From NCBI GenBank assembly GCA_019752045.1, contig JAIEMP010000007.1, forward strand, positions 1 through 64,000: a DNA stretch of 64,000 nucleotides, in the 5' to 3' direction. Positions 27,267-30,257 of the stretch are shown piece by piece. This DNA comes from Chitinophagaceae bacterium (GTDB lineage: Bacteria > Bacteroidota > Bacteroidia > Chitinophagales > Chitinophagaceae). A model generated the notes under the pieces. That model saw nothing but the letters and a program-made list of their open reading frames with translations. It did no database searches and was not told the DNA's origin. Made by a program: the position numbers and the translations under genes. Numbering within the stretch: the stretch's first letter is position 1; the number at the start of each line of letters is the position of its first letter.

Positions 27267-30257
27267 ATGAATCTTTTTGAAGCGCAACAAAACGAATTTT
27301 CCCTTCGCCACATTGGCACAGCCGGAGTTAAAGCAAGTCTGCTGAAAACAGTTGGGGTCAGCAGCATGGAAGAACTAATCAGTAAAACAGTGCCTGCGTC
27401 TATCCGTAATCATGAGCAACTGGATATTCCTGATGCAATGAGCGAAGCAGATTTACTGAAACACCTGAAAGAAGTCTCGCTCCAAAATAAACTGTTTAAA
27501 AATTATATCGGGCAGGGGTATTATGATACCCTCACTCCTTCTGTTATCCTGCGTAACGTATTTGAAAATCCGGGTTGGTATACCCAATACACACCTTACC
27601 AGGCTGAAATTTCACAAGGCCGTTTGGAAAGTTTATTAAACTTTCAAACAATGGTTGCTGATCTTACAGGATTACCCATAGCCAATGCTTCTTTATTAGA
27701 TGAGGCAACGGCAGCAGCAGAAGCCATGAACATGCTGTTTCATCATGTAAACCGCACAGAAGTTATTAATGCACCAAAGTTTTTTGTGGATGAAGAAGTG
27801 TTTCCGCAAACAAAAGATTTATTAATTACCCGTGGTACACCGCTGGGAATTGAACTGGTGTTTGGCCATTATAAAACGGCCGTTATTGACAACTCTTATT
27901 TTGGAGCGTTGGTTCAATACCCAAACAACATTGGTTCGGTTGAAGATTACCGTGAGTTTATACAGCAGGTACATACGGCGGGTGGATTTGTGGCCATGGC
28001 AACTGACTTGCTTGCACTCACGCTCTTAACTCCCCCCGGCGAACTGGGTGCAGATGTTGCTTTTGGTTCGGCTCAACGTTTTGGTGTTCCCCTTGGTTAT
28101 GGAGGACCACATGCTGCTTTCTTCACCAGCAAAGATGAATTTAAACGTTCCATACCCGGCCGTATTATTGGTGTAAGTATTGATGCAAAAAACAACCGTG
28201 CCTTACGCATGGCGCTGCAAACCAGAGAGCAGCACATTAAACGTGAAAAAGCAACCTCGAATATTTGTACGGCGCAGGCATTACTTGCAAACATGGCAGC
28301 CATGTATGCAGTGTATCACGGACCGCAGGGATTGATCAACATTGCAACACGTGTTGCACTACTGGCACAGACAGTTGCAGACAGTTTAAAAGAAAGAGGT
28401 TACGAATTAGTAAGCAATTTCTTTTTTGATACAATTGCTGTTAAGGTTAAAGACATTGCAGCAATAAAAACAAAGGCAGAAAAACAGGAAATCAATCTGC
28501 GATATATTGATGAGCAAACGATATCTGTTTCTATTGATGAAACAACAAGTCCTGAAGACCTCTACGATCTGATTAACTGTTTTGTAAATGATACAGATGC
28601 GGTGCATTTTTCAATAGAAGAAGAACCCGTATTACATCATTTGCCTGCAGCGCTGGTAAGAACAAGTAAGTTTCTTACACATCTTAATTTCAATACACAT
28701 CACAGCGAAAGCCAGATGATGCGTTACATTAAACAACTGGAGAACAAAGATCTGTCGTTAAATACTTCGATGATCTCTTTGGGCAGTTGTACCATGAAGT
28801 TGAACGCAGCAACACAAATGATGCCGTTGAGCTGGGCACACTGGAGCAAAATCCATCCGTTTGCACCCGCTGATCAAACAAAAGGTTACCAACAAATTAT
28901 TGATGAACTGGCAAAATACTTAAATGTAATTACGGGTTTTGATGCCTGCAGTATGCAACCCAACAGTGGTGCACAGGGTGAGTATGCCGGTTTGTTGGCG
29001 ATCCGTAATTTTCATTTAGCTAACGGTGATGCACACCGCAAGATTATGCTGATTCCTGTTTCTGCGCACGGAACCAACCCTGCAAGTGCAGTGATGGCAG
29101 GAATGAAAGTAGTGGTGGTAAAGGCACTGGACAGTGGTTATATTGATGTGGCTGATTTTAAAGCAAAAGCCGAACAACACAGTGCCAATCTTGCCGGCAC
29201 CATGATTACGTACCCCAGTACATTTGGCATTTTTGAAGAAACAGTAAAAGAAATTTGCGACATCGTTCACCAGCATGGCGGACAGGTATACATGGATGGT
29301 GCAAACATGAATGCACAGGTTGGGCTTACATCGCCCGGATTAATTGGTGCCGATGTTTGTCACCTCAACCTGCATAAAACATTTGCTATTCCACATGGTG
29401 GTGGTGGTCCGGGCATGGGTCCTATTTGTGTAAAAGAACATCTTGCTGCTCATTTGCCGGGGCATACAGCCCATCCCGACCTTCCCAAAGGGAAGGCCAT
29501 CAACACACAGACCTCACCAATCAAAGATGTAGATAGTAACTCAGTTTCTCGAACAAGTGAGCTAAGTGCAGTGGGCTCTTCCCCTTTGGGGAAGTTGGAT
29601 GGGGCTACCGGAGCCGTTAGTGCAGCGCCCTATGGCTCCGCTTCTATTCTTTTAATCAGCTACGCTTATATCCGTTTGCTTGGTGCTACAGGTGTTAAAA
29701 AAGCAACCGAGTTTGCCATTCTTAATGCCAACTACATGAAGGCCCGGTTAGAAAAAGATTACGACATATTATATACTGATGAGAACGGAACCTGTGCACA
29801 TGAATTTATTGTAGATCTGAGACCATTTAAAAATACAGCAGGTATTGAAGCCGAAGATGTTGCCAAGCGTTTGATTGATTATGGTTTTCATGCACCTACT
29901 ATGAGTTTTCCTGTAGCCGGTACCATTATGATTGAACCAACCGAAAGTGAAGACAAAGCAGAGCTGGATCGTTTTTGTGATGCCATGTTGAGCATCCGTG
30001 AAGAAATCAGAGAAATAGAAACCGGCAAAGCCGATAAAGCAGATAACCTGTTGAAAAATGCTCCACATACGCAATTCACTGTAATGGCAGATGAATGGCA
30101 ACATGCCTACACAAGACAACAGGCAGCTTTCCCGCTCTTTTATGTAACACTCAATAAATTCTGGCCATCCGTTTCAAGAATCAATAATACACATGGAGAC
30201 AGAAACCTTATTTGCACCTGCGAGCCGGTGAGCAGTTATGCAGAAGAAGAAGCATAA
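27267..30257 (+). CDS. gcvP: Glycine dehydrogenase (decarboxylating), P-protein, with in-frame insertion
   Basis: A 996-residue P-protein of the glycine cleavage system, a pyridoxal-phosphate enzyme that decarboxylates glycine and transfers aminomethyl to the H-protein lipoyl arm. Both homologous halves are present; the cofactor lysine is Lys704 in HLNLHKTFAIPHGGGGPG. Family members are around 950-965 residues. Here about 40 extra residues (about 735-779) sit between LPGHTAH and GATGAVSAAPYGSAS; the corresponding DNA (29470-29604) is a palindromic element. The gene is monocistronic, with its own leader and a strong terminator. Other gcv genes are elsewhere. Confidence 0.96.
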   Translation: MNLFEAQQNEFSLRHIGTAGVKASLLKTVGVSSMEELISKTVPASIRNHEQLDIPDAMSEADLLKHLKEVSLQNKLFKNYIGQGYYDTLTPSVILRNVFENPGWYTQYTPYQAEISQGRLESLLNFQTMVADLTGLPIANASLLDEATAAAEAMNMLFHHVNRTEVINAPKFFVDEEVFPQTKDLLITRGTPLGIELVFGHYKTAVIDNSYFGALVQYPNNIGSVEDYREFIQQVHTAGGFVAMATDLLALTLLTPPGELGADVAFGSAQRFGVPLGYGGPHAAFFTSKDEFKRSIPGRIIGVSIDAKNNRALRMALQTREQHIKREKATSNICTAQALLANMAAMYAVYHGPQGLINIATRVALLAQTVADSLKERGYELVSNFFFDTIAVKVKDIAAIKTKAEKQEINLRYIDEQTISVSIDETTSPEDLYDLINCFVNDTDAVHFSIEEEPVLHHLPAALVRTSKFLTHLNFNTHHSESQMMRYIKQLENKDLSLNTSMISLGSCTMKLNAATQMMPLSWAHWSKIHPFAPADQTKGYQQIIDELAKYLNVITGFDACSMQPNSGAQGEYAGLLAIRNFHLANGDAHRKIMLIPVSAHGTNPASAVMAGMKVVVVKALDSGYIDVADFKAKAEQHSANLAGTMITYPSTFGIFEETVKEICDIVHQHGGQVYMDGANMNAQVGLTSPGLIGADVCHLNLHKTFAIPHGGGGPGMGPICVKEHLAAHLPGHTAHPDLPKGKAINTQTSPIKDVDSNSVSRTSELSAVGSSPLGKLDGATGAVSAAPYGSASILLISYAYIRLLGATGVKKATEFAILNANYMKARLEKDYDILYTDENGTCAHEFIVDLRPFKNTAGIEAEDVAKRLIDYGFHAPTMSFPVAGTIMIEPTESEDKAELDRFCDAMLSIREEIREIETGKADKADNLLKNAPHTQFTVMADEWQHAYTRQQAAFPLFYVTLNKFWPSVSRINNTHGDRNLICTCEPVSSYAEEEA
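29470..29604. repeat. Palindromic element inserted in frame in gcvP
   Basis: The two ends are near-perfect reverse complements: GCCCATCCCGACCTTCCC...GGGAAG at the left (29470-29496) and CTTCCCCTTTGGGGAAG then TTGGATGGGG at the right (29578-29604). Each arm carries its own hairpin (TTCCC-AAA-GGGAA; TTCCCC-TTT-GGGGAA). The 135 nt equal 45 codons. The structure resembles Rickettsia palindromic elements or REPINs. Confidence 0.75.

Follow-up and report, generated by a model that had tools for sequence, protein, structure and literature searches.

How palindromic selfish DNA gets in frame into protein genes has, to our knowledge, been an open question since 2000, the year in which Rickettsia palindromic elements (RPEs) were reportedly described. 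The question is raised here by gcvP, the gene of the aminomethyl-transferring glycine dehydrogenase, in the first 64,000 nucleotides (nt) of contig JAIEMP010000007.1 of a Chitinophagaceae bacterium (assembly GCA_019752045.1; this whole stretch is called the window), where a palindromic element interrupts the coding sequence. The insert is probably a short, non-autonomous derivative of a longer homing-like element that carries a nuclease of the DUF559 family (PF04480), resides in frame in host genes without splicing and resembles RPEs in its way of working.

The gene extends from position 27,267 to 30,257 on the forward strand (NCBIfam TIGR00461, 1402 bits in two stretches) and encodes the only GcvP match of the source genome. 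The protein has 996 residues, as against 954 in six same-genus relatives, and its closest named match comes from a Chitinophagaceae metagenome-assembled genome (74%). Between LPGHT and ATGAVSAAP it contains 45 extra codons (735-779), corresponding to 135 nt in frame at 29,469-29,603. They begin 30 codons after the Lys codon (29,376-29,378, forward strand) of an NLHKTF motif; we take this lysine to be the one that holds pyridoxal phosphate. The entire palindromic element, AG...CT, is 139 nt long (29,468-29,606). Its terminal arms are inverted and paired with one bulge, and they enclose two perfect hairpins, CCTTCCC-AAA-GGGAAGG on the left (29,480-29,496) and CTTCCCC-TTT-GGGGAAG on the right (29,578-29,594). 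An inner stem is formed by CTCAC (29,513-29,517) and GTGAG (29,557-29,561), with both-sided changes across copies; element, hairpins and stem arms are all given on the forward strand. The right hairpin pattern, at up to three mismatches, has no other occurrence in the window, for which shuffles give a mean of 0.11. Less distinctive is the left pattern, with four window matches, of which two lie at other places, against a shuffle mean of 1.42. Folded as RNA, the element surpasses 200 of 200 shuffles (z -3.2), and as DNA its fold is weakly unusual (z -1.8, 12 of 200 shuffles equally good). The initial annotation, made from the letters alone, had recognised a palindromic element in frame in a GcvP some 40 residues longer than usual, and both observations proved correct.

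Comparison with 13 other genomes of the same genus revealed an empty site in 11 of them, which have only 6-30 nt where the source genome has about 44 codons. One genome, G006, is uninformative because its GcvP is a fragment. The remaining one, G009, carries a diverged insert of about the same length in the same GcvP loop; the alignment of the two inserts is free of gaps along 139 nt, and each of them has kept its two hairpins intact. No insert of such size was found in any other of 57 alignable GcvPs (from 80 named loci). The loop as such is variable in length, with roughly 20 extra residues in one locus (L042), and the homologue of known structure (PDB 9uz6) has 10 residues in place of the 46 of the source GcvP. 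Judging from these alignments, the gcvP insert is a derived insertion, in frame. A single insertion common to two sister lineages has to be rejected, since a GcvP tree built without the insert columns excludes sisterhood of the source genome and G009 (approximately unbiased test, p 0.00019); the element was thus acquired twice, or transferred, or acquired a single time with several later losses. In the gcvP of another genome, G026 (L113), the same loop is filled by a longer, unrelated repetitive stretch of HDSRFTI repeats, which indicates that the loop tolerates insertions.

The element belongs to a multi-copy palindromic family of the source lineage. In a DNA search with the gcvP copy, 15 more partial matches were obtained (E up to 10). 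Twenty-two ends, 20 from the source genome and two from G009, served to build R1, a covariance model of the 50-nt end; these ends had partly been selected by a hairpin-shaped pattern. R1 matches the left end of the gcvP element on the reverse strand (29,468-29,517) and the right end on the forward strand (29,557-29,606) with 59.7 and 57.3 bits, both ends being part of the training set. In the source genome R1 detects at least 88 ends at 82 places (E up to 0.1), a lower bound because the scoring covered 150 of 541 candidates. With a limit of E 0.01, matches occur in 13 of 59 genomes and are distributed very unevenly: 72 in the source genome, 75, 62, 37, 32 and 12 in five others and 0-7 elsewhere, with at most 101 candidates scored per genome. 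Six end pairs of the source genome are less than 500 nt apart (139, 141, 146, 171, 220 and 259 nt), and five pairs read in G017, a member of another genus, span 135, 140, 140, 140 and 242 nt. The initial annotation had supposed that a family of palindromes tolerated in coding sequence exists in this lineage and had proposed a search for further copies; such copies are indeed numerous, and it is true neither that the element lacks a second copy nor that the relatives all carry the extra residues without palindromic DNA.

Base pairing within the family is conserved. In the 22 ends, 98.7% of stem cells are paired, both-sided changes occur at five of seven pairs, and both-sided cells number 23, compared with 7.6 in shuffles. 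An alignment of 13 whole copies, whose stem columns were picked by hand, contains 35 both-sided cells versus 15.3 in shuffles and supports both hairpins together with the inner stem; RNAalifold, run on whole copies, predicts both hairpins and an outer stem, while the inner stem is missing from its prediction. Element ends are bunched within a few kilobases in three regions (C8:116-128 kb, C2:473-486 kb and C9:3-26 kb; L171, L172, L173, L174), and some copies stop just ahead of start codons (L010, L011). In the right parts of two copies (L002 and L004) a second palindrome, CCCGCCCGG...TCGGACGGGGG, is nested inside. Near the start of contig C14 (L018:21-188) a hairpin, CCCCGACTTTTAAGTCGGGG, occurs twice, 148 bp apart.

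Part of the family is located within genes. While 55 of the 88 ends lie in no open frame of at least 150 residues with 12 residues on each side, 33 do, and 26 are left after removal of seven antisense or gene-start cases. These 26 ends are distributed over 22 genes, all conserved and identified through family searches. Two ends each are present in gcvP, ispG, an alpha-2-macroglobulin gene and one of two E1 dehydrogenase genes. Single ends were found in acs, leuS, metH, icmF, ade, purH, hemF, rarA, phzF, rlmD, trpF, argH, a fadB-like gene, the second E1 dehydrogenase gene and the genes of a C39-peptidase ABC transporter, an LL-DAP-type aminotransferase, a DEXH helicase and a gamma-glutamyltransferase; the leuS end is part of a copy that bears DUF559. 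One codon phase is used by 20 of the 26 ends (binomial 3e-4, with an expectation of about 0.42 assumed from the stop-free phases), and a recurring peptide results, AHPDLPxGK or APSNSPxGG on the left and SSPxGGGxEGA on the right. In G017 a 140-nt copy with the peptide PAHPDLPGGKAT lies in frame in open frames of 645 and 973 residues.

Some copies are longer and contain a nuclease domain between their ends. The source genome has five DUF559 loci, scoring 94.7-122.6 bits (cut-off 20.6), and each of the five has, as judged by eye, a GC-rich hairpin on either side, the right one in leuS being imperfect. Two of them, in acs and leuS, are in-frame copies with DUF559 enclosed by two hairpin ends. Among 57 DUF559 domains of the source genome and its relatives, 32 are flanked on both sides by GC-rich hairpins under a strict rule that admits perfect hairpins only, whereas the same holds for 17 of 1595 control places. 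The two ends of one DUF559 element resemble each other more than ends of different elements do, own pairs scoring 16.7 and mixed pairs 9.3 (permutation maximum 11.8). At the level of the phylum, where 126 of 296 sampled genomes carry DUF559, two-sided hairpins were found at 12 of 20 loci selected for long frames, as opposed to 8 of 530 controls, under a laxer GC rule. In 22 of 60 DUF559 domains the same open frame continues for at least 100 residues on both sides.

The host genes of in-frame DUF559 that could be named by NCBIfam are leuS, acs, metH, metG, ade, icmF and aroC, while further cases, cinA and hsd genes for instance, are partial or weaker; eight scanned loci of the 20 from the phylum fall into leuS (three), metH (three) and recG (two). 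Sites in leuS and aroC are used recurrently, also by different genera. Site A of leuS, at profile position 237-239, is occupied in five genomes of the same family (the source genome G000, G012, G004, G025 and G026) and in two genomes of another family of the same class (L347, L349), and it is empty in G003, G001, G010 and G013. A second leuS site contains DUF559 in G020, G026 and L362; at this site the source genome has 19 extra residues which look like a remnant. The aroC site is occupied in four genomes, and its empty form in relatives reads LM-T-GVSIHAEV, compared with LMK-insert-GVSIHAEV in G012, where zero residues were lost. With 5% contamination, and with leuS and acs nucleases that hardly differ from those of the source genome, G012 does not represent an independent case. 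The inserts in gcvP, acs, leuS, aroC and many other genes leave the reading frame open. A Pfam scan of five host proteins (E up to 0.01) recovered the domains of the hosts, DUF559 and the model of a related nuclease but no intein domain, and seven loci gave no Rfam match at gathering score that would point to a self-splicing intron. In the N-terminal region of the source leucyl-tRNA synthetase (L280), the stretch STGSGQAPLKPKF resembles another repeat-derived in-frame insertion. A different DUF559 clade is located in frame upstream of argB (L252, L228) and hisA (L275, L248) in some relatives.

By profile and by fold, the DUF559 protein appears to be a Vsr-like PD-(D/E)XK nuclease akin to the Vsr-like homing endonucleases. 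The best profile match is 3hrl, followed by the catalytic domain of the homing endonuclease I-Bth0305I (3r3p, E 1.8e-5); a predicted structure (mean pLDDT 85) retrieves the same two as its best fold matches, 3r3p ranking second, and Escherichia coli Vsr comes lower (E 0.02). Residues T16, E19, D47, E58, D60 and H64, numbered after the first sequence, are among those invariant in ten aligned copies. A search of phages with the leuS nuclease gave three distant matches, and PADLOC returned weak matches only. Most in-frame copies belong to one clade of 21 (support 97/91), within which five of the six leuS site A copies and three of the four aroC copies cluster together. The ratio of nonsynonymous to synonymous changes (dN/dS) of the nuclease is low, namely 0.10 in leuS, 0.13 and 0.15 in aroC and 0.27 in ade. 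In these four pairs dS is 0.4-1.7, and one more in-frame pair proved saturated.

The short and the long forms are linked by their ends. R1 matches the source acs element at both ends (E 2e-8 and 0.065) and the source leuS element at its left end (E 6.6e-6), as well as the DUF559 flanks in the leuS, acs, ade and icmF genes of relatives. All six genomes with at least ten R1 ends are among the nine having the in-frame DUF559 clade (Fisher 1.9e-6; Spearman of counts 0.55). The parent would be an element of about 500 nt, composed of a hairpin end, the DUF559 nuclease and an inverted hairpin end, which often resides in frame in conserved host genes without splicing. Its GC-rich ends, read in the preferred frame, would yield flexible linkers rich in Pro, Gly and Ser, and the insert would sit on a surface loop, leaving the host enzyme functional. 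The nuclease, presumably produced as a domain of the host protein, would cut target DNA, and the element would be copied in through repair. Short copies of about 140 nt that lack the nuclease, like the one in gcvP, may then be mobilised in trans. We infer in this way that mobility is driven by the nuclease.

Several observations weigh against this reading. On the side of the ends, the right end of the leuS element matches R1 weakly (E 0.7), the hairpin ends at three of the five source DUF559 loci are beyond the reach of R1, and the R1 training set, which did not contain the leuS end, included one end flanking DUF559 (L002:2285-2332). Under the strict rule a perfect hairpin is missing from one side or both in 25 of the 57 DUF559 domains, and the own partner is the best match in just 13 of 32 elements. 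The Fisher value given above overstates independence, as the compared genomes share ancestry. Three of the 22 in-frame copies fall outside the clade (metH of G012, icmF of G046 and an hsdS-like gene). In gcvP itself, the insert peptide evolves nearly freely (dN 0.36, dS 0.43), no co-conversion of the flanks was seen around the insert, and an allele bearing DUF559 was not seen among the matches listed for 244 genomes of the family, in which no gcvP frame exceeds 1050 residues. No target-site duplication was established at the empty gcvP, leuS and aroC sites, which were read by eye and whose loops vary.

What else could have produced such a locus? Simple growth of a variable GcvP loop by local duplication, with nothing mobile involved, would agree with the length differences of this loop (about 20 extra residues in L042, the longer repetitive loop of L113), yet it is ruled out by the other element copies: the same ends recur at 82 places of the source genome and in other genera, so that we give it practically no chance. 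Also very improbable is post-transcriptional removal or skipping of the insert, as an intron, an intein or by translational bypass, which would leave a normal host protein. Essential enzymes are among the hosts and the element could fold strongly as RNA, both of which would suit removal, but an uninterrupted frame runs through the inserts with one favoured codon phase, and the searches for intein domains and Rfam families described above were negative. Hardly more credible is a repetitive extragenic palindrome (REP) or bacterial interspersed mosaic element (BIME) moved by a RAYT (Y1) transposase. The initial annotation had proposed to look for such a transposase, and of its interpretation this is the part that was not supported, the family, the in-frame tolerance and the empty site in relatives having stood. 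The hairpins do form inverted pairs, many copies lie outside long open frames, and the source genome has nine PF01797 matches, eight of them above the cut-off. At none of these nine loci was an element end found (2-3.4 kb; hairpin scan and R1 at E up to 1), and the GTAG tag, reported in the accessible part of PMC3733652, was not seen in the end alignment; RAYT as the mover is therefore unsupported.

The strongest competitor, which we nevertheless regard as rather unlikely, is an ordinary miniature inverted-repeat transposable element or RPE-like palindrome that owes its movement to an unknown transposase, DUF559 being a frequent passenger between such ends. A miniature inverted-repeat transposable element would have terminal inverted repeats and arise by internal deletion of an autonomous element; the short form has inverted ends in common with some DUF559 elements. 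Element places far exceed DUF559 copies (82 vs 5), three of the five source DUF559 loci have other end types, and the accessible text of PMC10969869 describes RPEs but names no mover for them. A mere passenger would not be expected to be flanked on both sides in 32 of 57 cases versus 17 of 1595, between own end pairs matched above chance, nor to retain a low dN/dS even within leuS and aroC.

In a wider sense, and more tentatively, these elements may constitute a class of selfish DNA spread over the Bacteroidota that persists by being translated: a Vsr-like nuclease with coding palindromes, inserted in frame and unspliced at recurrent sites of essential enzymes, whose indispensability to the host would protect the nuclease, the palindromes also spreading alone, as in gcvP. 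If so, homing would here be "inteinless", RPE-like coding palindromes would have a mechanism, and some leuS, metH, aroC or recG genes of Bacteroidota would hold a nuclease domain overlooked by annotation. Since a nuclease is linked to this RPE-like system, its sites occur both empty and occupied, and its host enzymes can be assayed, insertion, translation and tolerance become testable.

DUF559 is grouped with the Vsr-like PD-(D/E)XK nucleases in the accessible part of PMC12907096, in which a Caulobacter Vsr-like protein of the same DUF559 (PF04480) domain family is tied to cytosine methylation and the SOS response; a term search of that text did not find homing, palindromes or insertions. A link of DUF559 to palindromes or in-frame insertion was not found in the literature searched, which leaves out most subscription papers, so that novelty in print is unproven. 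With REP/BIME and their RAYTs, and with TIRYT elements, the family shares hairpins, small size and high copy number, and some REP copies lie inside genes according to the available portion of PMC3733652; linkage to RAYT, typical of REP/BIME, was not found here. The similarity to I-Bth0305I concerns the nuclease, which is related by profile and fold (3r3p), and insertion at the same sites of conserved genes, occupied or empty among relatives. I-Bth0305I and the Vsr-like homing endonucleases belong to the EDxHD family. Unlike I-Bth0305I, which is an intron protein (its PDB entry is named "Mobile intron protein"), the nuclease considered here lies in frame in its host genes, where the searches revealed no splicing element.

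The closest parallel is provided by RPEs, for which we know of neither a mover nor a long form. According to the accessible text of PMC10969869, these repeats are palindromic, measure about 150 bp and have integrated into metabolic genes that are unrelated to one another, almost half of the copies being in frame, with a conserved peptide. The family described here is likewise a multi-copy palindromic repeat of about 150 nt, inserted in frame in unrelated protein genes, and is likened to RPEs by its way of working without being assigned to them. It differs in belonging to a lineage far from Rickettsia, in having two hairpins and an inner stem, and in being linked to a long form that bears a nuclease.

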